From Bacteroidales bacterium (GTDB lineage: Bacteria > Bacteroidota > Bacteroidia > Bacteroidales > F082): a DNA stretch of 35,516 nt. The translations under genes and the position numbers were made by a program. Shown one piece after another: positions 10,728-33,322 of this stretch. Positions within the stretch are counted from its first letter, which is position 1, and each line of letters begins with the position of its first letter. The notes under the pieces were generated by a model, which was not told where the DNA came from, ran no database searches, and saw only the letters and a program-made list of their open reading frames with translations. The stretch is taken from assembly GCA_017630195.1 (NCBI GenBank), contig JAGBVS010000076.1, forward strand, positions 1 through 35,516, in the 5' to 3' direction.

Positions 10728-11156
10728 ATGAAATCAATTCTAAATTCCCAATTGACGGGAAAATGGTATAGCATTGCCCGTACTCGTAACTTTTTTGAAA
10801 TGAAATTCGTTGAAATATTTCTTTATATTTCAATCGCTTGCGAAAATAGTCTCGACTTGCATTATGTCGGAATAAAAGAGGATAGAAGTAAGGTCTTGAG
10901 GAAATTGACTTTAGAAATTTTAACAAAAAATGATACGGTTTTTATAATCCTTAAAAAAGGTATTTTCAGGAAAAGATTTAAGATTTTAACATTCGATGAT
11001 AAAAATGGAATATTGATTTTGTCAGATAAAAAAATGAAGTATGTTTCAATATTATCAAGGAAATCGTCGCTATGCCGTGAGGTGGTGGAATCTTGCCTGA
11101 ATCAAATTGAAGAACTGAATGGAGAGATGGAATTGTATAGTGGCAGTATTGTTTAG
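10728..11156 (+). CDS. Lipocalin-like protein without signal peptide
   Basis: 142 residues. The N-terminus LTGKWYSIARTRNFFE contains the lipocalin GxWY hallmark (G11-K12-W13-Y14) and resembles the start of Blc-type lipocalins (GTWYEIAR). The middle is beta-rich, with alternating hydrophobic strands, and GILILSDKKMKYVSILSRK resembles the later lipocalin strands that precede the C-terminal helix (about 120-135). Blc proteins normally carry a lipoprotein signal; this one starts almost directly at the barrel, so it would be cytoplasmic unless the start is wrong. The ORF has an adjacent strong promoter and ATG at 10728. It is a single gene, probably monocistronic. Family call is moderately sure; ligand is unknown. 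Confidence 0.6.
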   Translation: MKSILNSQLTGKWYSIARTRNFFEMKFVEIFLYISIACENSLDLHYVGIKEDRSKVLRKLTLEILTKNDTVFIILKKGIFRKRFKILTFDDKNGILILSDKKMKYVSILSRKSSLCREVVESCLNQIEELNGEMELYSGSIV

Positions 11157-12681: not shown

Positions 12682-12710
12682 AGGGGAATTTTGTAATAAA
12701 GTTCCCCTTT
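12682..12710 (+). terminator. Hairpin after purB
   Basis: AGGGGAA (12682-12688) pairs with TTCCCCT (12702-12708) around a 13-base loop, followed by a broken T run. It separates purB from the ABC exporter gene, which starts 12 bases later, so readthrough or a promoter overlapping it is possible. Confidence 0.55.
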
Positions 12711-12722
12711 AAATTTAATTAG

Positions 12723-14549
12723 ATGAAAATCAGTAAATTCAATAGAGTTCTTGGCTATGTGAAGCCATACTGGGGCAGCGTGACGATGAATATAGTTTTT
12801 ACTATACTTGCAACGATTTTTTCGCTGTTCTCTTTTTCAATGATTGTTCCTTTCCTGAATCTTTTGTTTAATCCGGATAATTTAATCACTGTAAAGCCTG
12901 AATTTTCATTGAGTTCGGATGCACTTCTCGAAACGATGAATTATTATATCAGCTCTATTATTATTTCAAAAGGTCAGAAAATGGCATTGTTGTTCATTTG
13001 TGTCATGTTAGTTTTCGCTTTTTTCTTGAGAAACCTCACGACATATATGGCAAGTTATTATATGGCGGCGGTGAGAGTCAATTCGATAAAGGATTTGAGA
13101 GCTGAACTTTACAACAAAATTCTTGTCCTTCCATTGTCGTTTTATAGTAAGCAAAAGAAAGGCGATATTATAGCGAGAATCACAACCGACCTCCAGGAAA
13201 TAGAAGTCTCTATCATGAATTATTTAGATGTTTTCATCAAATCGCCAATTACCATAATTGCGTATTTCGCTTATATGCTTGGAGTTAGCTGGGAACTGAC
13301 ATTGTTTGTGTTATGCGTTTTGCCTATAGGCGGCCTTGTTATCGGTAAGATTGGAAAATCTTTGAAAAAAGATTCTAAAGAAGGTATGACTCGTCTTTCA
13401 AATATTATTGCCAATATTGAAGAGACAATCTCTGGTTTGCGTATCATTAAGGCTTTCAATGCGATAGATTATACGAACGAAAAATTTGAAGAGCAAAATT
13501 ACGGTTATTCCAAGTTGTTAAAATTCGTTCACAGAAAAAGAGACCTCAGTTCTCCAATGAGTGAATTGCTTTCTGCAATAGTGATTTCTATAGTTCTTTG
13601 GTTCGGCTCAACTCTTATTTTGTCGGGTGACGCTACAATAACAGCGGCTAATTTCATTGCTTATATTGTCGTTTTTTCACAAATCATTCCTCCGGCAAAA
13701 TCATTTTCACATGGTTTTTACAACTTGCAAAAAGGTATGGCATCAGCGGAACGCGTCTTTGAAATTATTGATGCTGATGAAGTTATAGTTCAGAAAGATA
13801 ACGCTAAAAGCATTACAGAATTTAAAGATTCTATCAAGTATAATAATGTCGTCTTCCGTTATGGAAAAGAAGATGTATTAAAAAATATTAACTTGACGGT
13901 CGGTAAAGGCAAGATGGTTGCTTTGGTAGGAGAAAGTGGAGGCGGAAAATCTACGATGGTTGACCTTTTGCCTCGTTTTTATGATGTTTGTGAAGGTTCT
14001 ATAACAATTGATGGAAATGATATTCGTGATTATAAAATCGCCGACCTTAGAGGTTTGATGGGAATTGTAAGTCAGGAAAGTATATTGTTCAACGATACAG
14101 TTCATAATAATATCGCTTTCGGTATGCATAACGCTACGCGCGAAGACGTTGTAGAGGCTGCTAAAGTGGCTAATGCTCATGAGTTTATCATGCAGTTAGA
14201 GAATGGATATGATACATATATTGGCGACAGAGGTATGAATCTCTCTGGAGGACAAAGGCAGCGTTTGAGTATCGCACGCGCCGTTCTGAAAAATCCTCCA
14301 ATTCTCATACTCGATGAAGCGACTTCTTCTCTTGACACTGAATCTGAAAAACTGGTGCAAGACGCTCTTGCTAAGGTGATGAGCAACAGGACATCAGTAG
14401 TTATAGCTCATCGACTTTCAACAATTCAAAATGCTGATGACATTGTGGTGCTTGCAAAAGGTAATATTGTTGAACAAGGCAAACATGATGAACTTATTGC
14501 TAAAAATGGAGTTTATAAAAGATTGACGGATTTACAATCATTTAATTGA
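12723..14549 (+). CDS. MsbA-like ABC exporter (fused permease and ATPase)
   Basis: 608 residues. The N-terminal transmembrane domain has about six helices (roughly 20-45, 85-108, 165-185, 187-207, 280-300, 308-325). The C-terminal ATPase has Walker A GESGGGKST at 403-411, Q-loop Q451, signature LSGGQRQR at 507-514, Walker B ILILDEA near 527-533, and H-loop H563. It is therefore a complete half-transporter working as a homodimer. The closest named family is MsbA-type lipid or multidrug exporters; the substrate cannot be read from sequence. The next gene, a steroid 5-alpha-reductase homologue, starts one base after its stop, so the transporter is probably cotranscribed with the steroid-type enzymes. 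Export of a lipid or steroid product is an inference. Confidence 0.92.
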   Translation: MKISKFNRVLGYVKPYWGSVTMNIVFTILATIFSLFSFSMIVPFLNLLFNPDNLITVKPEFSLSSDALLETMNYYISSIIISKGQKMALLFICVMLVFAFFLRNLTTYMASYYMAAVRVNSIKDLRAELYNKILVLPLSFYSKQKKGDIIARITTDLQEIEVSIMNYLDVFIKSPITIIAYFAYMLGVSWELTLFVLCVLPIGGLVIGKIGKSLKKDSKEGMTRLSNIIANIEETISGLRIIKAFNAIDYTNEKFEEQNYGYSKLLKFVHRKRDLSSPMSELLSAIVISIVLWFGSTLILSGDATITAANFIAYIVVFSQIIPPAKSFSHGFYNLQKGMASAERVFEIIDADEVIVQKDNAKSITEFKDSIKYNNVVFRYGKEDVLKNINLTVGKGKMVALVGESGGGKSTMVDLLPRFYDVCEGSITIDGNDIRDYKIADLRGLMGIVSQESILFNDTVHNNIAFGMHNATREDVVEAAKVANAHEFIMQLENGYDTYIGDRGMNLSGGQRQRLSIARAVLKNPPILILDEATSSLDTESEKLVQDALAKVMSNRTSVVIAHRLSTIQNADDIVVLAKGNIVEQGKHDELIAKNGVYKRLTDLQSFN

Positions 14550-14550
14550 T

Positions 14551-15315
14551 ATGTTGCAATATTTTAACATATTTCTTTTGATAATGATTATAATAGCGGT
14601 GATAGTATTCATCGCTTTATATTTTGTGACAGCAGGTTACGGCGTGTTTTATAATAAGAAATGGGGACCGACAGTTCCTAATAAATTAGGCTGGATTATG
14701 ATGGAATCGCCGGTGTTTGTTGTCATGATTTTGCTTTGTGTTTTCTCAGAGAGAAGTTCAAATATTGTATGTCTGATATTTTTGATATTGTTTGAGATAC
14801 ATTATTTTCAACGTTCATTTGTGTTTCCTTTTTTGATTAGAGGCAAAAGCAAGATGCCTTTGTCTGTAATAGTTATGGGAGTGGTTTTCAATGTATTGAA
14901 TGCCATAATGCAAGGCGGCTGGATTTTTTATGTGTCTCCTGAAAATAAATATGAACTTTCTTGGCTGTTGTCGCCTCAATTTATTATTGGCACTATGATT
15001 TTCTTTGCAGGAATGTTAATTAATATTCATTCAGATTATGTCATAAGAAATCTTCGTAAACCAGGCGATACAAGACATTATCTTCCTAAAAAGGGAATGT
15101 TTAAATATGTTACGTCAGCTAATTATTTTGGTGAATTTGTTGAATGGCTTGGTTTTGCTATACTTACATGGTCGCTTTCCGGCGCGGTCTTCGCTGTCTG
15201 GACTTTCGCAAATCTCACTCCCCGCGCCGCCAAGATTTACGATAACTACAAGAAAGAATTTGGCGATGAACTCGATACAAAAAAAGTGAAAAGAATAATA
15301 CCTTTTATATATTAA
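14551..15315 (+). CDS. Steroid 5-alpha-reductase (SRD5A) homologue
   Basis: 254 residues, the same length as human SRD5A2, with six or seven predicted membrane helices. Segments match the animal enzymes closely: FEIHYFQRSFVFPFLIRGK (about 81-99), INIHSDYVIRNLRKPG (157-172), MFKYVTSANYFGEFVEWLGF (183-202) and the C-terminal IPFIY. E52 in MMESP and Y85 in IHYFQRSF align with the catalytic Glu and Tyr of human SRD5A2 (E57, Y91, from memory of the family). The family uses NADPH to reduce the delta-4 double bond of 3-oxo steroids to the 5-alpha product, in the membrane. Bile acids or host steroid hormones are the likely substrates in a gut bacterium; other lipid enones remain possible. It is the second gene of a tight run. 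Confidence 0.9.
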   Translation: MLQYFNIFLLIMIIIAVIVFIALYFVTAGYGVFYNKKWGPTVPNKLGWIMMESPVFVVMILLCVFSERSSNIVCLIFLILFEIHYFQRSFVFPFLIRGKSKMPLSVIVMGVVFNVLNAIMQGGWIFYVSPENKYELSWLLSPQFIIGTMIFFAGMLINIHSDYVIRNLRKPGDTRHYLPKKGMFKYVTSANYFGEFVEWLGFAILTWSLSGAVFAVWTFANLTPRAAKIYDNYKKEFGDELDTKKVKRIIPFIY

Positions 15316-15332
15316 GCGATAATCAAAACAAC

Positions 15333-16568
15333 ATGCGACCAACAAATTCCATTATTTTCACACCTTGTAAGATAGGTCCAATAGAATTAAGAAACAGAAC
15401 GATACGTTCTGCTGCTTTTGAAAATATGTGCAAAGAAAACAAGCCTACGCAGCAGCTTTTTGATTATCATACGGCTGTGGCTCGTGGTGGAATAGGCATG
15501 ACGACAATAGCTTACGCGTCTGTAAATCGCAGCGGTGTTTCTTTCGACGGGCAATTGTGGATGCGGAAAGAAATAGTGCCGGAATTGAAAAAACTAACAG
15601 ACGCCATTCATAAAGAAGGGGCTAAAGCGTCAATTCAGCTTGGACATTGCGGTAATATGACACATCGCAGCACATGCGGCTGCAAGCCAATAGGCGCTTC
15701 CTCTGGCTTTAATCTCTATTCTCCTACATTCGTGAGAGGTATGAAAGAACGTGAGATTCTCTCTTTGGTGAGAGATTTCGGCAAGGCTGTCAATCTCGCT
15801 CGTGAAGCTGGCTTCGATTGCGTAGAGATTCACGCAGGTCATGGCTATCTAATAAGCCAGTTTTTGTCGCCTTACACAAATCACAGGAATGATATTTGGG
15901 GCGGAAGCCTTGAAAATAGAATGCGTTTCATGAAACTTGTGATGAAAGAAGTCATGTACGCTGCCTCTGATGATATTGCCGTAGTGGTGAAAATCAATAT
16001 GTTTGATGGAATGAAGACAGGAATACATGTTGATGAGGCGATATTGATTGCCAAAGAGTTAGAGAAAATCGGCGTGCACGCTCTCGTGCTCTCGGCTGGA
16101 TTCGTCAGCAAGGCTCCGATGGAAGTGATGCGTGGCGCAATGCCGATAAAGACAATGGCTTATTACATGAATATGAGGAAGTTCTGGTGGCTTAAACTTG
16201 GACTTAGACTCGCCGGTAAGATGATGGTGCCAACAGTTCCGTATAAAGATGCTTATTTTTATGAAACAGCAATGAAATTCCGTGAAAATCTTAACATTCC
16301 TCTTATTTATGTGGGTGGAATGGTCGCAAAAGATGATATGGAAAAAGTCTTGAATTCTGGTTTCGTCGCTTTTCAAATGGCTCGCGCTCTCGTCAATGAT
16401 ACTGATTTTGTTAATAAATTACAAAAAGGCGAACTGACAAGAAGCGGCTGCAAACATTCCAATTATTGTATAGGAAGAATGTATAGCGAAGATATGCGAT
16501 GCCATCATTGTGTTGATGAAATGCCTAAAAAATTAAGAAAAGAAATTGATAAACTTGAAAATCAATGA
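15333..16568 (+). CDS. Old Yellow Enzyme-family NADH:flavin oxidoreductase, candidate steroid ene-reductase
   Basis: 411 residues forming only the FMN TIM-barrel domain. Visible family motifs: FTPCKIGPIELRNRTIRSA at the N-terminus, IQLGHCG (Q102, H105), HAGHGYLISQFLSPYTNHR (H167 and H170, substrate pocket), GGSLENRMRF (190-199) and the phosphate-binding YVGG near 326-329. Bile-acid enzymes BaiCD and BaiH belong to the same superfamily but carry an extra FAD/NAD domain that is absent here. The C-terminal cysteine cluster is C373, C379, C390, C393; the usual second cluster cysteine is S376, so a normal 4Fe-4S is doubtful. Placed between a 5-alpha reductase and two SDRs, it is a candidate 5-beta-reductase. 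Reaction inferred from context. Its stop overlaps the next start by 4 bases. Confidence 0.88.
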   Translation: MRPTNSIIFTPCKIGPIELRNRTIRSAAFENMCKENKPTQQLFDYHTAVARGGIGMTTIAYASVNRSGVSFDGQLWMRKEIVPELKKLTDAIHKEGAKASIQLGHCGNMTHRSTCGCKPIGASSGFNLYSPTFVRGMKEREILSLVRDFGKAVNLAREAGFDCVEIHAGHGYLISQFLSPYTNHRNDIWGGSLENRMRFMKLVMKEVMYAASDDIAVVVKINMFDGMKTGIHVDEAILIAKELEKIGVHALVLSAGFVSKAPMEVMRGAMPIKTMAYYMNMRKFWWLKLGLRLAGKMMVPTVPYKDAYFYETAMKFRENLNIPLIYVGGMVAKDDMEKVLNSGFVAFQMARALVNDTDFVNKLQKGELTRSGCKHSNYCIGRMYSEDMRCHHCVDEMPKKLRKEIDKLENQ

Positions 16569-17380
16569 TTTCTTTTAAGAAAAATATAGAAAAAATAAAG
16601 TGTCATAGAGAAGACGTTACTGCATTGATAACAGGAGCTAGTTCCGGAATGGGATTGCTTTATGCTAATCGTCTCGCTGAGGCTGGCTGTAATCTCGTGA
16701 TTGTCAGTAATCAGGAGAAAGAATTGAAAGAAGTGGGGGACAGACTTCAGAAAAATTACAAAATAAAAGTCATTGCTCGTTATCAGGATTTGTCGCATGA
16801 TGATGCAGCCCGGCAATTGTATGATTTTTGTAAAAATCAGAATGTGATTGTTGATATTCTGATAAACAACGCAGGCATGTTTTTCTTTCATGAACTTGAT
16901 GATGAATATCATAAGAAAATGGAACTTATGCTTAATCTTCATGTGATGACTCCAACTCGTATGTGTAGGATTTTTGGTGAAGATATGAAGAGAAGAGGAT
17001 ACGGAAATATTGTTTTAGTTTCTTCTATGGCGGCGCGACTTCCATTTCCCGGAATTACAACATATTCTGCAACAAAAGCTTATCTTAAAAGTTTTGGCAA
17101 ATCATTATATTATGAAATGCGAGATTATGGAGTGGGCGTGACGACTGTTTGTCCGGGAGCTATCGCTACACCTTTATATAAACTGAATCCTAAATTGCTG
17201 AAACTTGGAGTGAAAATTGGTCTTATAGGAACGCCGCAATGGCTTGTTGATAAAGCGCTTAAAGGTATGTTCAGGAAAAAGATGGTTGTCGCTCCGGGAG
17301 CTATGAATGTATATTTGCCTCCATTACTCGCAATTTTGCCAAAACCTTTAGTGAATTTTATATGGAGAAAAGTCAAGTAA
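16565..17380 (+). CDS. Short-chain dehydrogenase/reductase 1, candidate hydroxysteroid dehydrogenase
   Basis: 271 residues, classical SDR. Cofactor motif TGASSGMG at 23-30, NNAG at 101-104, N124, catalytic S154, Y167 and K171 (YSATK) are all present, so the enzyme should be active. The C-terminus ends in a hydrophobic stretch with VYLPPLLAILPKPLVNFIW, reminiscent of the membrane-associated 17-beta-HSD/ketoacyl-reductase branch of SDRs. The ATG overlaps the upstream oxidoreductase stop (ATGA) and its own end overlaps the next SDR by 19 bases, a strong sign of one transcript and coupled translation. A 3-alpha, 3-beta or 17-beta hydroxysteroid dehydrogenase role fits the neighbours, but position and stereochemistry cannot be read from the sequence. 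Confidence 0.88.
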   Translation: MISFKKNIEKIKCHREDVTALITGASSGMGLLYANRLAEAGCNLVIVSNQEKELKEVGDRLQKNYKIKVIARYQDLSHDDAARQLYDFCKNQNVIVDILINNAGMFFFHELDDEYHKKMELMLNLHVMTPTRMCRIFGEDMKRRGYGNIVLVSSMAARLPFPGITTYSATKAYLKSFGKSLYYEMRDYGVGVTTVCPGAIATPLYKLNPKLLKLGVKIGLIGTPQWLVDKALKGMFRKKMVVAPGAMNVYLPPLLAILPKPLVNFIWRKVK

Positions 17381-18201
17381 TAGTAACAGGTGCGACTGGA
17401 AGTATTGGAGGAGCCGCTGTTAAGTCGTTGTTAGATAAAGATATACCTGTAATAATGGCTTGCCGTAATATTAAAAAGGCAGCGTCTCAACGTGATGTTT
17501 TGATAAAGCAATTCCCACATTCGGAAATAGAAATAATAGAATTGGAATTGAATTCTCTTAATTCAATAAAAACATTTGCTGATATTATTAAGAATCAAGG
17601 TTTTAAGGTGAATAAACTTCTTAATAATGCAGGAATAATATGCCGCGATTTCTCAGTTAATGAAGATGGTTTTGAGACTACTGTAGCGGTAAATTATATT
17701 GGTCCTTTGTATCTTACAAAATTGATGATTCCTTTGATGGAAGATGATTTTAATATTGTTAATACGGTTTCCGTAACACGTGGAGTTTCAAAGCTTGACG
17801 AATGTTTCTTCGATTTGGATAAAAAGAAATTTTCTCAGTTGGGGACTTACGGAAAGGCGAAGTATGCTTTGTTTTTGTCGTCATTGACATTATCTGAAAA
17901 TATAAAAAACGGAAGTGTGAACCTTACCGACCCGGGAGTTGTCGATAGCAATATGATTTCAATGCATCGATGGTTTGATCCGCTTGCAGACATCTTATTT
18001 AGGCCATTTTGCAAATCGCCGGAAAAAGGTGCGATACCTGCTGTTAATGCTCTTATGACAACGGATGAAGTGCAACAGATTGGTAATGTGATGCTTTTTT
18101 CAGGTAATAAGAGCAAAGTTGTTTCTATGAAACATTATGATAATCCTATTAGAGAGTGGCTGTGGAAAGTAACGGAGGCTCGTTTAGGATTTATTTCGTG
18201 A
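17362..18201 (+). CDS. Short-chain dehydrogenase/reductase 2, retinol-dehydrogenase-like
   Basis: 279 residues. Cofactor motif TGATGSIG at 9-16, NNAG at 88-91, catalytic Y163 and K167 in YGKAK, and S137 in NTVSVTRG. The serine-to-tyrosine distance is longer than in SDR1 because of an insertion with DECFFDLDKKKF, as in retinol dehydrogenase/WW-oxidoreductase-type SDRs, where such an insertion is common. It overlaps SDR1 by 19 bases in another frame and is the last gene of the run. Two different SDRs suggest either oxidation and reduction of opposite stereoisomers, or different positions on one scaffold. Function beyond NAD(P)-dependent alcohol/ketone chemistry is inference. Confidence 0.85.
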   Translation: MEKSQVIVTGATGSIGGAAVKSLLDKDIPVIMACRNIKKAASQRDVLIKQFPHSEIEIIELELNSLNSIKTFADIIKNQGFKVNKLLNNAGIICRDFSVNEDGFETTVAVNYIGPLYLTKLMIPLMEDDFNIVNTVSVTRGVSKLDECFFDLDKKKFSQLGTYGKAKYALFLSSLTLSENIKNGSVNLTDPGVVDSNMISMHRWFDPLADILFRPFCKSPEKGAIPAVNALMTTDEVQQIGNVMLFSGNKSKVVSMKHYDNPIREWLWKVTEARLGFIS

Positions 18202-18329
18202 CTTTATCACAATTTCGTTCCAAATCCAATTCCGATGAAGTCGGCGACTCCAAAGTGTGTGTTGAGTGTTATTACTTCTAATTTTAAAAAAATCTTTTGT
18301 CGATAGTCTTTTACCTTTAGACTTTTTCT

Positions 18330-21803: not shown

Positions 21804-23132
21804 TTAATCTCTTCCGCCGCCCAATGCGTGGTATAATGACGTTATTGCGTTCAATTTATTAAGCTGGTCGTCGGTCTTGGAAATAAGAGCCGATAGCAGC
21901 GACTGCTGAGCTTCTATCACCTCGAGGTATGTCGATGAGCCGAGTTTCAGCAATTCGTTTGTATATTCTACAGCATTGTAGAGCGACAATATCTGCATGT
22001 TGCGCGACACTTCTTTTTGTATTTCTGCGTCGTAGGCTATAAGCGCATTGCTTACCTCCATTGCCGCATCGGTAAGTGTCTGCTTGAACTGAAGCCGAGC
22101 CTCTTCTTCCTGAGCTTTGGCAATTTCAAGTTTTGCCTTGTTGGCACCTCTGTAGAACAAAGGCTGTGTCAACGATGCGAGTGCGCTGAAGGCTGCATTC
22201 CATCCTAACGATGCGTCGATGACGATGTTTGGATAGAAAGCAGAACGCGCTGTATTTGTGTTGTAATACATAGATGCTAAATAATGTTCGGCGTTTTTCA
22301 CGTCAGGACGGTTGGCGAGCAATTGCATCGGCACTCCGGCCTTGATGTCGAAATCAACCTTCTGTTCGTCTATCTTTCCTCTTGTGATAGGTCTGGCATA
22401 ATCGCCGAGCAAAGCTGCTAAAGCGTTTTCCTGTTTCATGATGGCAGCCTTTATTTCAGGGATAGATGCTTGTATAGAAGCGTGATATGCCTCGTATTGA
22501 GCTACGGCAGCTTCTGTTGTCATGCCGCCTTCTTTCATCGCTTTGATGGTTTCGACACTGACAGCCCAGCTTTTTTCTGTCATAGTATATATGTTGAGCT
22601 GTTTATCTAAAGCGAGAAGGTTAAAATAATAATCTGCTATAGTAGCTACGAGTTGTGTTTTTACAGCCTGCTGATATTCTTGATTCATCATGAGAGAAAC
22701 TTGTGCCTTTCTCTTTTCATTCAGCAGCTTGCCGAACAAATCTATCTCCCAGCTTGCGGTGACAGAAGCATCGTAATTGGCTCCGAAGCTGCCGTTTGAG
22801 TAAGATAAATTAGCAGGAAGATAAACTCCTACAGCAGGAAAGAACGCCAATTTAGAACTCATCAGAGCAGCTTTGGCTTCATTGACTTTCTCTATTGCAA
22901 CCAAGAGGTCGGTATTGTTTTCAAGACCGTAATTTATCAATGCTTGAAGATTGGGGTCAGTGTATATTTCGGTCCAGCTTAAGTCGGCTATGCTTGCAGT
23001 GTCGGTTGATTGTGTTCCGTCAGGGGTACGATACGACTGAGCTACATTCATATCAGGGCTCTCGAAATTCTTGTATATATTGCAGCTGCTTAATGTTGTT
23101 GCACAAAGAGCTATATAAAATAATTTTTTCAT
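21804..23132 (-). CDS. Outer-membrane efflux lipoprotein, TolC/NodT family (pump 1)
   Basis: 442 residues with a lipoprotein signal: lipobox LSSC with C17 as the acylated cysteine. Two OEP repeats, the usual TolC-type helical hairpins, span about 60-240 and 250-435; the typical NRPDVKNAEHYLASMYYNTNTARSAFYPNI is at about 283-311. It forms the trimeric channel of the tripartite pump with the RND and MFP encoded upstream on the same strand. It is the last gene of the six-gene efflux block. It has the order MFP, RND, OMF in common with pump 2. Confidence 0.95.
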   Translation of the reverse strand: MKKLFYIALCATTLSSCNIYKNFESPDMNVAQSYRTPDGTQSTDTASIADLSWTEIYTDPNLQALINYGLENNTDLLVAIEKVNEAKAALMSSKLAFFPAVGVYLPANLSYSNGSFGANYDASVTASWEIDLFGKLLNEKRKAQVSLMMNQEYQQAVKTQLVATIADYYFNLLALDKQLNIYTMTEKSWAVSVETIKAMKEGGMTTEAAVAQYEAYHASIQASIPEIKAAIMKQENALAALLGDYARPITRGKIDEQKVDFDIKAGVPMQLLANRPDVKNAEHYLASMYYNTNTARSAFYPNIVIDASLGWNAAFSALASLTQPLFYRGANKAKLEIAKAQEEEARLQFKQTLTDAAMEVSNALIAYDAEIQKEVSRNMQILSLYNAVEYTNELLKLGSSTYLEVIEAQQSLLSALISKTDDQLNKLNAITSLYHALGGGRD

Positions 23133-23156
23133 TGTTTTGTATATTTAATTAACATA

Positions 23157-23201
23157 AGATGCATCAATGTCTTTTGTATTATCAGTCATTCATCGACGCG
23201 C
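23157..23201. repeat. Degenerate copy of the dispersed inverted repeat
   Basis: AGATGCATCAATG (23157-23169) differs by one base from the arm of copy A. The other arm, around CATTCATCGACGCG at 23188-23201, is weaker. It lies in the gap between the RND and OMF genes of pump 1. Confidence 0.5.
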
Positions 23202-23215
23202 CTTTACAATCATAA

Positions 23216-26200
23216 TCATTCAAATTCTATAGGTTTAAATTTCTCTTGTAATGTCTCAAATATCACGAACAATGCAGGAACGATGAATATCTGGCAAACC
23301 ATGCCGATGAGCATGCCGCCGATGGCTCCGGTTCCTAATGCACTATTGCCGTTAGCTCCTACTCCGTGAGCGAACATCATTGGAAGAAGTCCGATGATCA
23401 TGGCGAGCGAAGTCATAAGGATAGGACGCAGACGAGCAGCGGCGGCATCAATAGCTGCCTCTGCTATTGTCATTCCGCCTTGACGTCTTGCTACAGCGAA
23501 CTCTGTAATCAAGATGGCGTTCTTTGCTAACAGACCTATAAGCATGATAAGACCAATCTGCAAGTAAATGTTATTGTCGATACTCATCATTCTTGCGAAG
23601 ATGAATGTTCCGGCAAGGCCGAACGGGATAGAGAAAATAACAACCAAAGGCAAGATGTAGCTTTCATATTGTGCACTCAACAAGAGATAAACGAACATGA
23701 TGCAGATGATGAGAATCATGCCGAGACCGCCGCTCTGACCTTGTTCTTCTCTTGTCATGCCAGAATATTCGTAGGCATAACCTTGTGGGAGATACTGCTC
23801 GGCAGTCTCTTCGATAGCTTGTATTGCCTGGCCAGAGCTGTAGCCTGGTGCTGGAGTTCCGTTGACTAAGATAGAAGTGAACAAGTTGAAACGTTTGATG
23901 TTATCAGGTCCATAGACTCTTTCGAGGTCGATGAACTGGGTGATAGGAGCCATCTCGTTGCCGTTTCTTATCTTTATCGCATTGAGTGATACCTCATTGA
24001 CTCTTAGCTCTGGGCGAGCTTGTACCATGACACGGTAGAGCTTTCCGAAACGGTTGAAGTTGGATGCGTATATGCCTCCGAAATATCCTTGTAATGTTGT
24101 GAGAATGTCTGAAGGCGAAATGCCAGCCTGTTTGCATTTCGCAGCATCTATGTTGACCATATACTGAGGATATGTCGGGTTGAAACTGGTGCTTGCCTGT
24201 GCTACTTCAGGACGTTCGCTGAGACGTGCTATGAATTCTTGTGCCACGCCGTAGAACGACTCGATGGAACCTCCGGTCTTGTCTTGAAGGTTGAACTCGA
24301 ATCCGTCAGATACGCTGAAGCCAGGTATCATCGGCATTGAGAAAGTGATGACACGACCTTCTTTTACGAGTTCTCTCGCCTCTAACATGAGTTTTCTGTT
24401 TATAGCGTCGGCACTTTCGGTATCGTCGCGCTCTTCCCAGTCATGGAGCTTGCAGATGAATGTTCCGTACGAACTGCCTGTGGCACTGCTCAAGATGCTG
24501 AAGCCTGATATGGAGGTGTATGTCCTGATGGCAGGTGTGTTGTCGATGAGTTTCTCAACTTTGGCCATGGCTTCTTTGGTCTTGTCTAATGATGTTCCGG
24601 CAGGCATGTCAACGGTGACGAAAATTGTTCCGGTGTCTTCGTTAGGTACCAATCCTGATGGCGTTGTAGCCATGAGATAGAACAACAAAGCTGCGCCGGC
24701 AGCTACAGCTCCCATTGAGAGTAACTTATGTTTTACAAAGAAACTTACGCCTTTGCTATATTTTTTGACGGTAACATCGTATGCGGTGTTGAATGCGATG
24801 AAGAATCTCTTCAGAAGACCAACTTTTTCACCTTCATGATTTACGTGAGGCTTGAGAAATAAAGCGCATAATGCAGGTGATAGGGTGAGAGCGTTGATGG
24901 CAGAAAATGCGATAGATACAGCCATGGTGAGACCGAACTGACGGTAGAATGTACCTGTGATGCCCGACATGAAACTGACAGGGATGAACACAGCCATCAT
25001 GACTAAGGTGATAGATATCAAGGCTCCGGATATTTCGCCCATAGCTTCTATCGACGCATCGCGAGCTGATTTGGCACCTTTTTCTAATTTCTCGTGCACA
25101 GCTTCAACTACCACAATAGCATCGTCAACAACGATGGCGATGGCGAGAACCATAGCGCATAATGTAAGGAGGTTGATGCTGAATCCCATCACTTTCAACA
25201 TGAAGAAAGTGCCTATCAATGCTACAGGAATTGCGATGGCAGGGATGAGCGTAGAACGGAAGTCTTGCAAGAAAATGAACACTACCAAGAATACGAGCAC
25301 GAATGCTTCCAACAAAGTCTTGATAACTTCATGAATAGAAGCGAAGAGGAAGTCGTTGGAGTCGAGCAGGATGTCGTATGTTACGCCAGGAGGAAAGTTT
25401 CTCTTTTCTGCTTCCAATAATGCTTTTACCTCGTTGATGATTTGTGTGGCATTAGAGCCGGCCGACTGATATATCATGGCAGTGATACCTTCGTGGCCGT
25501 TGGAACGTGTGTCGATAGAGTAGCTCAAAGAACCGAGTTCTACGTCGGCAATGGTTTTTAGACGCAGAACGTCACCGTCTTCGGTAGCTCTGATGACGAT
25601 GTCGCCGAATTCTTCCGGTGTAGCGAGTCTTCCTTTATATTTCAACATATATTGGAACGTGACATCTTGTGCGTTTTCGCCGAGCTGGCCAGGAGCTGCT
25701 TCTATGTTCTGTTCGCTGAGAGCATTAGTGACATCACTAGGCATCAGTCCGTATTGTGCCATCACGTCGGGCTTGAGCCATATTCTCATTGAATATTCTG
25801 CGCCGAGAAGTTGGGCATCGCCGACACCTCCGATACGTTTAATCTGAGGAAGTACGTTTATCTTTAAATAGTTAAACAGAAACTCCTGGTCATATTTGTC
25901 GTTTTCGCTATAAACGGTAAATGCTAAGAGAATGCTGGTTTGTTTCTTGCTTGTGGTGACACCAGCCTTTGTCACTTCTGATGGGAGGAAGCCTTGTGCT
26001 TTGGTGACGCGGTTCTGTACGTTGACGGCAGCCATGTCGGGGTCGGTGCCAGGCTTGAAATAAACGCTTATCGTAGCGTCGCCGGTGTTGGTGGCAGTTG
26101 AGACCATATATGTCATGTCTTCAACACCGTTGATTTCCTCTTCAAGAGGTGCGATGACGCTGTTGACGACAGTCTGTGCGTTAGCTCCTTGGTATGATGC

Positions 26201-26341
26201 TTTGACTTCTACGGTAGGAGGTGCTATGTCTGGATATTGTGAGATGGGAAGCGTCATAAGTCCGATGAGACCGAGCACCACAATGATGATAGAGATGACG
26301 GTAGAAAGAACAGGACGCTTGATAAAATTATCTAATTTCAT
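23216..26341 (-). CDS. RND efflux permease, AcrB/HAE1 type (pump 1)
   Basis: 1041 residues, standard size with the two-fold repeat of six transmembrane helices and large periplasmic loops. The N-terminal family segment is RPVLSTVISIIIVVLGLIGL, followed by LPISQYPDIAPPTVEV. The proton-relay pair is D406-D407 in VVDDAIVVVEAV, and the relay lysine sits in LLAKNAILITEFA. It should drive drug or bile-salt efflux with the proton gradient. It lies between its MFP (23 bases upstream) and OMF (83 bases downstream, with a repeat). Confidence 0.97.
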   Translation of the reverse strand: MKLDNFIKRPVLSTVISIIIVVLGLIGLMTLPISQYPDIAPPTVEVKASYQGANAQTVVNSVIAPLEEEINGVEDMTYMVSTATNTGDATISVYFKPGTDPDMAAVNVQNRVTKAQGFLPSEVTKAGVTTSKKQTSILLAFTVYSENDKYDQEFLFNYLKINVLPQIKRIGGVGDAQLLGAEYSMRIWLKPDVMAQYGLMPSDVTNALSEQNIEAAPGQLGENAQDVTFQYMLKYKGRLATPEEFGDIVIRATEDGDVLRLKTIADVELGSLSYSIDTRSNGHEGITAMIYQSAGSNATQIINEVKALLEAEKRNFPPGVTYDILLDSNDFLFASIHEVIKTLLEAFVLVFLVVFIFLQDFRSTLIPAIAIPVALIGTFFMLKVMGFSINLLTLCAMVLAIAIVVDDAIVVVEAVHEKLEKGAKSARDASIEAMGEISGALISITLVMMAVFIPVSFMSGITGTFYRQFGLTMAVSIAFSAINALTLSPALCALFLKPHVNHEGEKVGLLKRFFIAFNTAYDVTVKKYSKGVSFFVKHKLLSMGAVAAGAALLFYLMATTPSGLVPNEDTGTIFVTVDMPAGTSLDKTKEAMAKVEKLIDNTPAIRTYTSISGFSILSSATGSSYGTFICKLHDWEERDDTESADAINRKLMLEARELVKEGRVITFSMPMIPGFSVSDGFEFNLQDKTGGSIESFYGVAQEFIARLSERPEVAQASTSFNPTYPQYMVNIDAAKCKQAGISPSDILTTLQGYFGGIYASNFNRFGKLYRVMVQARPELRVNEVSLNAIKIRNGNEMAPITQFIDLERVYGPDNIKRFNLFTSILVNGTPAPGYSSGQAIQAIEETAEQYLPQGYAYEYSGMTREEQGQSGGLGMILIICIMFVYLLLSAQYESYILPLVVIFSIPFGLAGTFIFARMMSIDNNIYLQIGLIMLIGLLAKNAILITEFAVARRQGGMTIAEAAIDAAAARLRPILMTSLAMIIGLLPMMFAHGVGANGNSALGTGAIGGMLIGMVCQIFIVPALFVIFETLQEKFKPIEFE

Positions 26342-26364
26342 ATTATAATCTCCTTGAGGTTAAA

Positions 26365-27513
26365 TTACTTTGTTGTAGCTTTTTGAAATTTTGCGTCTGC
26401 CTCTTCTTTAGTGATTGGCTTCATCTTCATTCCGTTCTTTACCGATGAACCTACGCCTTCTATCACGATGACATCGCCTGTTTCGAGACCTTCTGTCACG
26501 ATGTAGTTCTGTTCGTATGTGAGGTTGTCTACTTTAATCTCGCGCATCTCGGTGATGCTGTCGTTGAAGATATAAACGAACTTCTTGTCTTGCATCTCGA
26601 ATGTTGCGTTTTGTGGTACGAGACGAGCGTTGTATATTTCGCGAGGTATAAATATTACGCCTGTTGCACCGCTGCGCAATATTTTGGCAGGGTTAGGGAA
26701 AGTGGCTGTCATGCTTGCTGACCCTGTCTTGGTATCTAAAGAACCTGACACTGATGTGATGGTGCCTTTATGTTCGTATGTTGTTCCATCGGCGAGTTTG
26801 AGTTCTACCTCAGGCATGTATTTAAGTATGTCTTTCACGCCGCCTTTTGAGGTATAATATAGCATGAGTTTCTCGTTGATGGAGAAGTCGGCATCAACGC
26901 GGTCAATCTGTGATACTGTTGTTAGTGCTTCTGATGTTGTAGAGCCGACAAGGCTGCCCACGCTGAATGGTATGTCGCCTATCACGCCATCGTTAGGGCT
27001 TTTAACATAACTGTAATCTAAATTGATTCTGGCTTGTTCAAGTTTCGCTTCAGCTTGCTGAAGTTGAGCCTCGGCAGATTCCAATTGGTTGTCGGCTAAC
27101 TTCTTCTCATATTCGCTGATGATGCCTTTCTCGTAAAGATTTGTTTTGTTGACAGCGGTGAGTTTTGCTGTCTCAACATTTATTTTAGCACTGTTGACAT
27201 TGGCGAGAGCCATGTTATAATCAGCTTGATATGGAGCATGGTCTATCTCAAACAATAGGTCGCCTTTCTTTACCATGTCGCCCTTGTCGATATGTTTTTT
27301 GATGATAGTTCCTGAGACGTTGCTTCTGACTTCAGCATCTTGATAGCCTGAGATGATAGCAGGGAATGAGTTCTTTACAATGACAGGTTCTTCTTCAATA
27401 ACCATCACTGCATATTCTGGAATGGGTTGTTGTACGGTCTTTTCCTGACAAGAAAAAAGCAATGCCGATACTGCTAAAAACGACATTGCCCTTAATGTAA
27501 ATTTTGTTTTCAT
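26365..27513 (-). CDS. Periplasmic adaptor (membrane fusion) lipoprotein, AcrA type (pump 1)
   Basis: 382 residues. Lipobox LFSC with C22. Barrel-sandwich hybrid start VRSNVSGTIIKKHIDKGDMVKKGD near 62-85, alpha-hairpin about 95-160 (rich in Ala, Glu and Gln), and second half of the lipoyl domain SYVKSPNDGVIGDIPFSVG near 170-188. It links the RND pump to the outer-membrane channel. First gene of the pump 1 group, with a -7 box 38 bases upstream, so pump 1 can probably be expressed independently of pump 2. Confidence 0.95.
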   Translation of the reverse strand: MKTKFTLRAMSFLAVSALLFSCQEKTVQQPIPEYAVMVIEEEPVIVKNSFPAIISGYQDAEVRSNVSGTIIKKHIDKGDMVKKGDLLFEIDHAPYQADYNMALANVNSAKINVETAKLTAVNKTNLYEKGIISEYEKKLADNQLESAEAQLQQAEAKLEQARINLDYSYVKSPNDGVIGDIPFSVGSLVGSTTSEALTTVSQIDRVDADFSINEKLMLYYTSKGGVKDILKYMPEVELKLADGTTYEHKGTITSVSGSLDTKTGSASMTATFPNPAKILRSGATGVIFIPREIYNARLVPQNATFEMQDKKFVYIFNDSITEMREIKVDNLTYEQNYIVTEGLETGDVIVIEGVGSSVKNGMKMKPITKEEADAKFQKATTK

Positions 27514-27551
27514 ATTTTAATACTTTAGTTTTTTTGTGAAAAATTATTTTA

Positions 27552-27559
27552 CAAATATA
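27552..27559 (-). promoter_or_regulatory. Probable -7 box for pump 1 operon
   Basis: Minus strand reads TATATTTG, a perfect TAnnTTTG, 38 bases before the MFP start. No regulator gene lies nearby. Confidence 0.5.
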
Positions 27560-27605
27560 AGAATTAGATTTCAGTGATAAAAGAATTTTTTTAAAAATTA
27601 AAATC

Positions 27606-27637
27606 AACAAGGAATTAGTTCGAACTAATTCCTTGTT
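27606..27637 (-). terminator. Perfect 32-bp palindrome between the two efflux operons
   Basis: The half AACAAGGAATTAGTTC (27606-27621) is followed by its exact inverse complement (27622-27637). It stands 10 bases after the pump 2 OMF stop (minus strand) and upstream of the pump 1 -7 box. As an RNA it is a 16-bp hairpin followed by AT-rich sequence without a perfect T run, so a terminator or processing site is the simplest reading; an operator for pump 1 is an alternative. Confidence 0.7.
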
Positions 27638-27647
27638 CATGATTATC

Positions 27648-28982
27648 TTACTCCAATCCTCCGCCAAGTGCATGATACAATGTTATAACACTTTGTATTT
27701 CCTGGTATTTGTCTGAAGACTCTGTCAGCTCGGCTTGTAAGAGATTTTTTTGCGCTGTGAGCACTTCGATGTAAGTGGCTTGTCCGTTCTTCATCAGAAG
27801 CTGTGTGTTATATACAGCGCCTTTTAAATACATAATCTGTAATTTGTCGCTGTCTAATCTTTTGCGAGCTGTCTGCCATGATACTAAAGCGTTGTTGGCT
27901 TCGGTGCCTGCATCTAACAATGTCTGCTTGAAGTTGAGCAGCGCTTCTTGACGTTGGGCCTCGCTGATTTTCACTCTTGCTTTATTCTTTCCTTGATTGA
28001 AGATAGGCTGCATCAAAGAGCCTACTGCGTTGAAGATCCAGTCGCCAGGGTCGCCTATGACTCCCGACCAGCCTGCACTGCCGCTTAAAGTGATGTTAGG
28101 GTAGAAGTAGGAACGTGCTACGTTGGTGGCGTAATATGCCTCTACCAATTTGTATTCAGCCTGACGAACGTCGGGGCGATTGACAAGACTCGACAAAGGA
28201 AGTCCCATTAATAATGTATCAGGAAACACTTGCTGCGACAAATCATTGCGTTCAAACACTTGTGGCACGAGGCCCAAGAGTGCTGCTAATGAATTCTCTT
28301 GTTCGGAGATTTGTTTGTTTAATGTCAAGATGGATGCTTCAACGTTGACTTTATTAGCTTTAGCTTGTAAGACGGCAGCTTCGTTGGTCTTGCCGGCTCT
28401 TTTCAAAGCTGACAATGTTCTGATGTTTTCTTCCCAAGTGTTGAGTGTTCTCTTGCTTATTTCCAATTGCTCATCGAGCATGAGAAGTGTGTAATATGAA
28501 TTTGCTATTGTTGCGATGAGTTGAGTCTGTACGGCCTGTTGGAATGCTTCAGTGGCGGCCAATGCAGCTTCAGAACCTTTCTTGGTGTTGTGTAATCTTC
28601 CGAAAGCGTCAATCTCCCACGATGCATTAGGAACAAGGCTGTAACTGCCGTTTGTGCTGACTTGAGCAGTAACTGCCGCGTTAGGGAAAAAAGCTAACTT
28701 TGATGACTGTAGTGTGGCTTCAGCTTGTTCTACTTTTAAGCGCGCAATCTCAAGGTCGGTATTGTTTTTCAATCCTATTTCTATCATGTTTTGAAGAAGT
28801 GTGTCGGCAAACAACTCTTTCCATGATAGTGATGCTATCGACTCGTAGTTGTTGGCAGTAGGTATTTTGTTGTACAGACTATCCACAAAACTAATATCGG
28901 GACGCTCGTAATGCTTATACAAGGCGCAACTGTTCATCGTGACAACAGTCAATATTATAAAAGGAATTAATATCTTTTTCAT
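27648..28982 (-). CDS. Outer-membrane efflux lipoprotein, TolC/NodT family (pump 2)
   Basis: 444 residues with lipobox MNSC (C19 acylated). Same architecture as pump 1's channel: two OEP repeats, and NRPDVRQAEYKLVEAYYATNVARSYFYPNI near 283-312. The two channels share clear relatedness but differ widely outside the family motifs, so they are old paralogues. Starts 2 bases after the pump 2 RND stop. Confidence 0.95.
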   Translation of the reverse strand: MKKILIPFIILTVVTMNSCALYKHYERPDISFVDSLYNKIPTANNYESIASLSWKELFADTLLQNMIEIGLKNNTDLEIARLKVEQAEATLQSSKLAFFPNAAVTAQVSTNGSYSLVPNASWEIDAFGRLHNTKKGSEAALAATEAFQQAVQTQLIATIANSYYTLLMLDEQLEISKRTLNTWEENIRTLSALKRAGKTNEAAVLQAKANKVNVEASILTLNKQISEQENSLAALLGLVPQVFERNDLSQQVFPDTLLMGLPLSSLVNRPDVRQAEYKLVEAYYATNVARSYFYPNITLSGSAGWSGVIGDPGDWIFNAVGSLMQPIFNQGKNKARVKISEAQRQEALLNFKQTLLDAGTEANNALVSWQTARKRLDSDKLQIMYLKGAVYNTQLLMKNGQATYIEVLTAQKNLLQAELTESSDKYQEIQSVITLYHALGGGLE

Positions 28983-28984
28983 GA

Positions 28985-31900
28985 TTATATTTCTTTATTT
29001 CTTTGAGGCATTATTTTCTCTTCTATATTTCTAAATATGATAAATAAGACGGGGACGACAAATAAAAGAGCGATTGTTCCTATTAACATGCCGCCTACAG
29101 TTCCCACGCCAATTGAGATGTTGCCGTTAGCGCCGACACCTGTTGAGAACATAAGTGGTAACATACCGAAAATCATCGTCAATGATGTCATCAGGATAGC
29201 TCTTAATCTGGCTTTCGCTGCCGACATCGCTGCCATAGGAATCGACATGCCTTCGCTTCTTCTCGCAGATGCGTATTCTGTAATTAAGATGGCTGTCTTT
29301 GCCAAAAGACCAATCAGCATCAAGAGACCGATTTGCAAGTAAATGTTGTTTTCCAATCCGTACATATTGGCGAACAAGAAACTGCCTGCAAGACCGAATG
29401 GTATCGACAAGATGACGACGATAGGGATGAATATGCTTTCGTATAAAGCGCAAAGAATCAAGTATATGAAAACGATACAGAATACGAATATTATCGCTGT
29501 TGAACTTCCTGAGGAAGCCTCTTCTCTCGACATGCCGCCAAATTCGTAGCCGTAACCTGCTGGCAATAACTCATCTGTTACTTCTCTTACGGCTTGAATT
29601 GCTTCGCCTGATGAATATCCGTATGCAGCCTGTCCGTTGATTTGTATTGATGAGAAAAGGTTGAATCGTGAGATAGACTGTGGTCCGTAGATACGTGTTA
29701 AAGTGACATATTGGCCAATAGGAGACATCTCGCCTTTGTTGTTACGGACGAACATATTGTTGAGCGATTCTGTGTCGAGACGGTATTCTGCAGAAGCCTG
29801 TACCATGACTCTATAAAGCTTGGAGAAACGGTTCATGTTAGAAGCGTATGAACCTCCCACATAACCAGCCATCACGTCGAGGACGTCGCCAGGAGAGACA
29901 CCGTTACGTTTGCAGCGAGCAGCATCTACTTCCAAGAGATATTGAGGATATTTGGTGTCGAATGTTGTGCTGGCTCTGCCTACCTCTGGTCTTTCGTTAA
30001 GAGCTGCTATGATATTGTTGGTGATACTTTGTAAGTCTTCGATATTACCGCCTTTTTGGTCTTGGATGTGAAGCTCGAAGCCGCTACTTGCACCATAGCC
30101 AGGAATCATACCGCGGGTGAAGACTGTTATCTTGGCAGATGTGATGTCGGCTGTAGAAGCATAAATATCTTCCATCACAGAGTCGATGTCGTCGCCTATT
30201 TCAGTACGCAACTCCCAGTCTTTTAATCTGATGGTGAAGCCGCCGCATGAAGGACCGGCACCACTCATCATGCCATAACCTGTGGTGTATGAATATGACT
30301 CTATCTGTTCTATTGCATCTAATCGTGATGCTATAAGTTCCATGACTCTCACTGTCTCGTTGAGGTTGGTGCCCGGAGGTGTCTGAACGTCAATGTTTAT
30401 TGAACCCATATCTTCCTTTGGAACGAGACCTGTTTTGGTGTTTTCTAACATATAGAAAAGTCCGCCTACAGCAGCTATGACGAGAATTACAGAGAACCAT
30501 TTGTTCTTGAACATAAACAAAACGCCTCTCTTATATCTGTTGACGAGTCCTTGGAATCCTGAGTCGAATGCGATGTGGAATCGTGTTGAGAATGAGAGCT
30601 TGCCTTCATTGTTGGTATAGTGTGGCTGCATCAATAAGGCACATAATGCCGGACTTAATGTGATGGAGTTGATGAGTGAGATACCAACAGCAACGGCCAT
30701 GGTAAGACCGAATTGTGTGTAGAAGGTACCTGTTGTTCCGCCCATGAAACATACTGGGATGAACACTGCCATAAATACGAATGTTGTTGCAATCAAAGCA
30801 TTGGAGATACCTTGCATAGCGTCGATGGTGGCTTTGTATGGTGAGTCGTATCCTGCGTCGAATTTGGCTTGTACCGCTTCAACCACAACGATGGCATTAT
30901 CCACGACGGTGCCGATAACAAGCACTAAGGCAAACAAGGTAATCATATTGAGACTGAATCCTGCTACTTTCAAGAATGCAAATGTTCCAACGAGTGACAC
31001 TATGATGGCAATAGCAGGGATGAAGGTAGAACGGAAACTCTGTAAGAAGATATAAACAATCAAAACAACCAAGACGACAGCCAAGATAAGAGTGACGATG
31101 ACGTTTTCTATAGAAGCGTCAAGGAAGTCTTTTGTACTCATCAAGTCGATGATTTCAATGCCTTTTGGTAATGTCTTGCGTATTTCTTCAACCTCTTTGT
31201 CGATGGCATCGATGATTTCGTTGGCGTTGGAGCCTGAAGTCTGTGAAATCATCAATGTCGTTCCAGGATGGCCGTTAACTTGTCCGATATAGTCGTAGCT
31301 TCTGGATCCTAACTCTACTGTTCCCACGTCTTTGAGTCGTAATAAAGTACCGTCGCTGTCGGCACGAATCACCATGTTGGCGTAGTCTTCTTCCTTGTCG
31401 TAGCGGCCTCTGTATTTCAATGTATAACGGAAAGTGTTGTCGGAGTCGGCGCCGAGAGTGCCGGTAGCTGCTTCAAGGTTTTGTTCCGCCAATACCGCAG
31501 AGATGTCTTTTGGCACCAAAGAATATTTTGCCATTTTTGCTGGGTCGAGCCAGATACGCAGTGAGTAGTCGGCGCCTCTTACGTCAACTTCACCAACGCC
31601 GGCGATACGAGAGAGACGTGGCTCGATGTTAATCTTTAAGTAGTTACTTAAAAATCTCTCGTCGAAAGAGTCATCTGGACTATACACGGCAAGTACTTTG
31701 ATTCTACTTGTCTGTCTTTTCTTTACGCTGACGCCGCTTCGTGTTACTTCTGCGGGGAGAAGACCTTGTGCTGAAGCGATGCGGTTCTGTACGTTGACCA
31801 TCGCCATGTCGGCATTGGTTCCTTGACGGAAATAAATCTGTATGTTGGCAGAGCCGTTGTTGTTAGCCGATGATGTCATATACATCATATTCTCCACGCC

Positions 31901-33294: not shown

Positions 33295-33322
33295 ATTCAA
33301 CGCTAAATATATAATGTAACGA

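Follow-up and report, generated by a model that had tools for sequence, protein, structure and literature searches.

Among the described systems, the one closest to the locus reported here was worked out in Parabacteroides merdae, Odoribacter laneus, and Bacteroides dorei, reportedly in the Honda group study known as Sato 2021. Strains of these species convert 3-oxo-Δ4-lithocholic acid (3-oxo-Δ4-LCA) to isoalloLCA, and disruption of the steroid 5α-reductase (5AR) of P. merdae blocked formation of alloLCA derivatives (PMC10382948). The same source describes 5AR clusters with a predicted 3β-hydroxysteroid dehydrogenase (3β-HSDH) and an NADH:flavin oxidoreductase; the same indirect isoallo pathway is described in PMC9645264, and the Bacteroidetes route is given as a 5β-reductase (5BR), 5AR, and 3β-HSDH in PMC12697870 and PMC11271093. 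In PMC6069880, 5AR is listed for all chicken Bacteroidetes isolates of that study except two Odoribacter and Parabacteroides distasonis. In addition, two enzymes of the Old Yellow Enzyme (OYE) family, 5β-Δ4-KSTD1 and CasH, perform 5β-Δ4 dehydrogenation of 3-keto bile salts; the two are similar in domain structure, and 5β-Δ4-KSTD1 is predicted to carry an Fe-S cluster and two flavins (PMC8044976). Here we describe a four-gene operon at positions 14,551 to 18,201 of contig JAGBVS010000076.1 (assembly GCA_017630195.1; Bacteroidales; F082), a stretch of 35,516 nt that is referred to below as the window. The operon probably carries out a bile-acid (3-oxo-steroid) A-ring inversion of the known Bacteroidota 5AR/5BR/3β-HSDH kind.

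The four genes lie on the forward strand and encode an SRD5A-type 5AR (14551..15315; 254 aa; PF02544 Steroid_dh, 7.4e-42, 143 bits), a short OYE orthologous to the putative 5BR (5β-reductase or 5β-Δ4-dehydrogenase) of the cluster (15333..16568; 411 aa; PF00724 Oxidored_FMN, 1.9e-59), and two short-chain dehydrogenases (SDRs), the classical SDR1 (16565..17380; 271 aa; PF00106, 6.9e-41) and SDR2 (17362..18201; 279 aa; PF00106, 1.2e-17). An earlier reading made from the DNA letters alone (the sequence-only reading) had pointed to four tightly packed genes of these families, and this was borne out by their coordinates, by their Pfam families, and by their spacing (+17 bp for 5AR/OYE, -4 bp for OYE/SDR1, and -19 bp for SDR1/SDR2). 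Like the published Bacteroidota clusters, as far as their gene content is outlined in the above sources, the locus has an SRD5A homolog adjoining an NADH:flavin oxidoreductase and SDRs. Its 5AR falls in one clade with that of Phocaeicola massiliensis, the adjacent OYE belongs to the orthologous group, and the adjacent SDRs are related to those of P. massiliensis (SDR2, 35% identity) and P. distasonis (SDR1, 46% identity). Unlike P. massiliensis, which has one SDR, the window has two SDR types, and unlike the known clusters it comes from an uncultured genus and is set between an MsbA-like gene and a DUF5606 gene. Because human gut bacteria are already known to have the cluster to which it belongs, the locus is a wider occurrence of that cluster and not a new system. 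It extends the isoallo-bile-acid cluster to a large uncultured Bacteroidales genus. The closest named relatives, 85-87% identical in 5AR, are metagenome-assembled genomes (MAGs), some of them from ruminant gut; they are filed as Lentimicrobiaceae SIG104/105/107 and as Bacteroidales from roe deer colon. Within its assembly (2.74 Mb, 84% complete), the window is contig C51, and its 5AR is the sole PF02544 match.

In the proposed pathway, SDR1 would oxidize the 3-hydroxyl of a 5β bile acid to the 3-oxo form, from which the OYE would reversibly remove two hydrogens to give the 3-oxo-Δ4 compound. The membrane-bound 5AR would then use NAD(P)H to place a hydride on the α face of C5, with a proton passing from the conserved Glu to C4, and the flat 3-oxo-5α (allo) product would be reduced by SDR2 to the 3β-hydroxy (isoallo) product. 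This scheme draws on gene identities, catalytic residues, clade, synteny, and co-occurrence; from these we infer the individual reactions, their substrates, and how the two SDRs share the work.

In phmmer comparisons of the whole protein, 5AR matched bacterial PbSRD5A (7c83; 1.2e-57, 198.7 bits) and human SRD5A2 (PDB 7bw1; 2.1e-40, 142.2 bits) in alignments that span nearly its entire length. A block described by the sequence-only reading as near-identical to animal 5α-reductases was indeed found, with 13 of 16 residues identical between INIHSDYVIRNLRKPG of 5AR and INIHSDYILRQLRKPG of human SRD5A2 (7bw1). Homologs occurred in 86 of the 149 genomes of a family sample and in 90 of the 393 genomes of an order sample, and the close clade mostly has the same neighbors; the occurrence is therefore not due to chance. 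Each homolog set was gathered from one query protein, and the counts reported here ignore kinship. Identity to the window 5AR was bimodal, with an upper group at ≥50% and a lower group at ≤47%. The upper group is one gut Bacteroidales clade that includes the human-gut species P. massiliensis, supported at 100/99 in a careful tree of 49 hand-picked rows, in which human SRD5A2 joins beside the clade on a long branch with weak support (62/80). The same branch was recovered (SH-aLRT 99) in a quick tree built without 29 short-flank rows (L003-L031), so that most rows of the window genus are absent from it. The check by hidden Markov models and tree that had been suggested for 14551..15315 thus put the protein on the SRD5A side.

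Residues were counted over 126 distinct 5AR proteins, 90 from the upper clade and 36 from the lower. Like PbSRD5A and human SRD5A2, members of the same family, the window 5AR has the catalytic Glu and Tyr (E52 and Y85, equivalent to human E57 and Y91), which are invariant in all 126 proteins, as well as the Asn, Asp, Arg, and Glu that contact NADPH. In PbSRD5A numbering, N159 is kept in 89/90 upper-clade proteins, and D163, R170, E196, and R226 in 90/90 each. By homology, 5AR is predicted to be an integral membrane protein that depends on NAD(P)H. Unlike the two reference enzymes, it has Met (M51) in place of human Q56, as do all 126 proteins. This Gln belongs to the QEY motif, which is reported as conserved in PMC7815742; because Met also occupies the position in a Nocardia homolog, the published motif may be too narrow, and Met is perhaps a common bacterial state. 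The idea that Met is a gut-specific switch was rejected, since it occurs in 36/36 lower-clade proteins and in the Nocardia homolog. Three other NADPH contacts of PbSRD5A have changed in the gut clade: Y177 is His in 87/90 upper-clade proteins and Tyr in 36/36 of the lower clade, H230 is Ile, Leu, or Val in 90/90 versus His in 28/36, and R34 is non-basic in 55/90 versus basic in 36/36. The substitution H231A was tolerated in the human enzyme (PMC7815742). Judged from these residues, a cofactor shift in the gut-clade 5AR is possible.

Synteny was compared at 77 upper-clade 5AR loci with at least 3.9 kb of downstream sequence, among which some genomes are perhaps counted twice. The orders observed were 5AR-OYE-SDR1 (32/77), the window order 5AR-OYE-SDR1-SDR2 (22/77), 5AR-OYE and 5AR-OYE-SDR2 (5/77 each), SDR1-5AR-OYE and SDR1-5AR-OYE-SDR2 (2/77 each), and 5AR-OYE-SDR1-SDR1 (1/77), so that 64 of the 77 gut-clade loci combine 5AR and OYE with at least one SDR. 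The sequence-only reading had offered the two-SDR order, together with an exporter, as a distinct variant; at 22 of 77 loci, the order is too common for that. A same-strand OYE was near 5AR in 78 of 90 upper-clade proteins and in none of 36 from the lower clade. Two of the 12 upper-clade 5ARs with no nearby OYE, L003 and L005, lie on the contigs of L032 and L039, in which an insert precedes the OYE. Unguided clustering of neighbors at 82 loci returned 5AR (75), OYE (64), and SDRs (58) as the sole common families, the next reaching 18 and the exporter 6. Across 393 Bacteroidales genomes, a close OYE (≥50% identity) was found in 46/47 genomes with an upper-clade 5AR, 8/43 with a lower-clade 5AR, and 1/303 with no 5AR. 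Among the upper-clade genomes, the OYE is split in two pieces in G295 and missing from G149, for which no match was obtained at 1e-10. Of seven genomes whose 5AR has no adjacent OYE, six have one elsewhere (L044 lay outside this check). Two divergent gut-clade 5AR copies, neither with an adjacent OYE, were seen in G149 (L093/L096) and in G267 (L094/L098). The inserts between 5AR and OYE measure 1.7-1.9 kb in two close relatives (L032:8762-10636 and L039:8762-10501). Visual inspection suggested a fragment resembling a transposase (L032) or short unassigned open reading frames (L039), plus a lipoprotein-like reading frame; as extra pathway genes the inserts were rejected on this inspection only, without a family search.

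The catalytic Tyr and Lys are conserved in both SDR1 (Y167, K171) and SDR2 (Y163, K167). SDR2-type genes were present at 29 of 69 5AR-OYE loci versus 0 of 16 close OYE loci with no adjacent 5AR (Fisher p 8e-4, kinship uncorrected), and within the loci surveyed SDR2 was found only beside 5AR. SDR1-type genes stood beside 8 of the same 16 OYEs. The SDR counts at these 16 loci are lower bounds, because the sequence past the OYE stops after about 250 bases in L191 and about 1 kb in L177, and because L195 is fragmentary. P. massiliensis has the order 5AR-OYE-SDR2. P. distasonis has an OYE-SDR1 pair like that of the window (NZ_OY725754.1; OYE 64% and SDR1 46% identical), and no 5AR was found at 1e-5 in this 117-kb record. 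On the basis of these counts and gene orders, SDR1 probably serves the OYE on the 5β side and SDR2 the 5AR on the 5α side, and the distribution hints at which SDR belongs to which half of the pathway. We propose SDR1 as a 3-hydroxysteroid dehydrogenase and SDR2 as a 3β-HSDH. Against a strict split, 5AR and OYE occur with no SDR at five of the 77 loci, and SDR1 is the only SDR at 32.

The OYE carries PF00724 alone, and the Pfam scan found no Pyr_redox_2 FAD/NAD domain. Its best NCBIfam match, BaiCD (NF041087), covered the N-terminal part and fell far short of the cut-off (195 bits against 825). Like BaiCD, 2,4-dienoyl-CoA reductase (DCR), and 5β-Δ4-KSTD1, it has an OYE barrel and a catalytic Tyr (Y172), and its tail aligns with the Fe-S loop of Escherichia coli FadH. 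In PMC7371122 and PMC11574389, Fe-S flavoenzymes are defined by an additional FAD/NAD domain together with a CX2CX3CX11-13C motif. The window OYE differs from the BaiCD-type enzymes in both respects: in place of the standard motif, whose second Cys is replaced, it has C373-X5-C379-X10-C390 plus C106. These four cysteines are present, and the second motif Cys missing, in 79/79 5AR-linked OYEs, in 8/8 of their close relatives, and in both named species (counts exclude the later loci L189-L195). In distant Bacteroidales OYEs, C106 occurs together with all four tail cysteines in 11 of 12, and the other is truncated. Among short OYEs from Actinobacteria and Proteobacteria, none of six has a Cys at position 106; five have CX2CX2CX9-11C, and the sixth (RHA1 pRHL1) is without the second Cys as well. 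As a series, these alignments suggest a ligand swap in which C106 takes over the role of the missing second Cys. The RHA1 row, with both absent, speaks against a strict need for the swap.

As a tentative model, about which we have more doubt than confidence, the OYE may be a stripped Fe-S flavoenzyme holding flavin mononucleotide (FMN) and a [4Fe-4S] cluster bound by C373, C379, C390, and the migrated ligand C106. Since it has no NAD(P)H-binding domain, its redox partner would be an independent electron carrier, for instance ferredoxin, and 5AR with its remodeled pocket would use NAD(P)H. If this were true, A-ring inversion would couple two electron pools with the bile acid as the shuttle. With this locus, it becomes testable where the so-called 5BR, lacking an NAD(P)H domain, obtains its electrons. 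The putative cysteine swap and the SDR partition are two side findings at this locus, and both can be tested; neither is put forward as unpublished, since the literature searches did not target them. Compared with FadH, the OYE has an insertion of about 40 residues (259-300; window 16107-16232) with an aromatic/hydrophobic stretch, FWWLKLGLRLAGKMMVP, which is possibly a membrane-facing segment near the membrane partner enzyme. In an OYE tree of 52 rows, made up of the window, the added rows, and roughly a quarter of the 5AR-linked rows chosen arbitrarily, Candidatus Colimorpha pelethequi (Bacteroidales incertae sedis) was placed among the rows of the window genus.

The steroid A-ring interpretation offered by the sequence-only reading was supported as to its chemistry, as family, tree, and synteny point to processing of 3-oxo-Δ4 or 3-oxo-5β steroids (bile acids); its distinct variant was not. 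Several observations weigh against A-ring inversion. The 5BR role of the flavin oxidoreductase is presented as a hypothesis in PMC10382948, and three OYE homologs tested in PMC8044976 were inactive on bile salts, so that belonging to the family is not in itself proof of the reaction. The Asn (N253 of ci2350) that marks the Bacillota steroid 5β-reductase clade (ci2350/BaiCD) is probably absent from the window OYE, whose residue at this site, a His in DCR, is Val258 by hhalign and a gap by MAFFT, an uncertain column in an alignment that does not include ci2350. The window 5AR has Met where the published QEY motif has Gln, and the Q56A and Q56L variants of human SRD5A2 lost activity (PMC7815742), although Met is universal among the 126 proteins and occurs in the Nocardia homolog. 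In addition, 5AR stood alone, with no cluster partner nearby, at 8 of the 77 loci, and P. massiliensis stands in for a biochemically tested Bacteroidota 5AR as the clade reference. Many OYEs accept hydride from NAD(P)H at FMN, and the OYE might be an NAD(P)H-driven 5β-reductase working in the reducing direction only, in which case the cluster would make 5α and 5β products in parallel from Δ4 precursors. We doubt this, though not strongly: reviews including PMC10382948 use reductive naming, whereas OYE-SDR1 pairs with no adjacent 5AR fit an oxidative 5β module and BaiCD runs in both directions (PMC8044976), neither of which is decisive. It is unlikely that the same chemistry serves steroid hormones or dietary/plant sterol derivatives instead of bile acids, even though PbSRD5A responds mainly to progesterone (PMC7815742), the Bacillota OYE 5β-reductase ci2350 is described as acting mainly on hormones, and 5AR homologs also occur in Chitinophagales and Saprospiraceae MAGs (L051, L052). 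The Bacteroidota cluster as known has been linked to LCA derivatives (PMC10382948), and the window's own genome encodes a bile-salt-hydrolase-like protein (L153:1408-2517, contig C40) above the Pfam cut-off for PF02275 (234.6 bits) and below that of NCBIfam NF038245 (230 bits; cut-off, 350). A fatty-acyl or polyprenol enoyl substrate for 5AR, as for a TECR- or SRD5A3-type enzyme, is scarcely credible. Weak residual similarity was found to the TECR-like ART-1 (phmmer; 3.6e-8, 36.6 bits) and to DUF1295 (Pfam; 30.1 bits), compared with 199 and 142 bits for PbSRD5A and SRD5A2; the steroid-site Glu and Tyr are invariant, and the gene is linked to OYE and SDRs. Grouping with fatty-acyl enoyl reductases, named by the sequence-only reading as a reason to abandon its interpretation, was not seen, with ART-1 as the sole such comparator and SRD5A3 outside the comparison.

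The other part of the proposed variant was the exporter gene directly upstream (12723..14549, forward strand; 608 aa), which is MsbA-like only (TIGR02203, 532 bits; cut-off, 602). It ends 1 bp before 5AR, and within the subclade of the window it adjoins the cluster at 6/6 loci. Downstream of purB, at 12682-12708, lies a terminator-like site with 12 pairs, so that the exporter may open a unit running into the cluster; the scan was weak (10 sites versus 5.5 expected, with four more plus-strand sites inside these genes). Even so, a system in which the exporter removes the product, with the window as an exporter-bearing variant, appears improbable. Of 60 genomes sampled from the genus, 51 have the exporter, among them 25 of the 26 good ones and 12 of the 13 listed with no 5AR, so we regard it as a neighbor, possibly co-transcribed, outside the pathway. 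It was rejected as a cluster member because it adjoins only 1 of 20 other loci of the genus, is present genus-wide, and follows purB and precedes DUF5606 with no cluster between in four relatives (G094, G131, G067, and G087); in G051, exporter and cluster lie on separate contigs. DUF5606 is downstream of the cluster in 11 of the 20 other genus loci.

In G094, the closest of these four relatives, in which no 5AR was found, DUF5606 comes straight after the exporter, and exporter, PurB, and DUF5606 are 96, 95, and 97% identical to those of the window. Homology ends at 14547 and restarts at 18284, which defines a cassette (14548..18283, no strand assigned) missing from this relative; the junction has a 2-bp microhomology (shared TT), and no target-site duplication was seen there. 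In the five closest relatives of the window, the exporter is upstream in all and DUF5606 in none within the 0.2-5 kb of downstream sequence; among these six loci, both flanks are present in the window alone. The pattern is consistent with purB-exporter-cluster-DUF5606-pyrKD as the ancestral order, followed by breaks and losses; repeated gain at one site is also possible. At this one locus, relatives that carry the cassette can be set against relatives that do not, which makes a natural comparison.

The protein at L153:1408-2517 resembles bile-salt hydrolases and penicillin V amidases and has, by eye, a signal peptide. Scanning the window for a Bacteroidales promoter pattern gave 1 match versus 1.36 expected. 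Two tandem efflux operons of the resistance-nodulation-division (RND) type, each with an outer-membrane factor, an AcrB-type pump, and an adaptor, occupy 21804-33300 on the reverse strand (the family scan covered only the first set). In P. distasonis, unlike in the window, and in G252 and G434, which share one genus code (loci L162, L072, and L194), the OYE has an RND pump gene close by; a link to bile-acid efflux is possible in this lineage. The window's two pumps share 53% identity; with the RND protein beside the P. distasonis OYE they share only about 26%, and on the latter figure they were rejected as linked efflux. Upstream of purB, a small lipocalin-like protein (10728-11156) is 43-78% identical among close relatives, versus 92-95% for purB.

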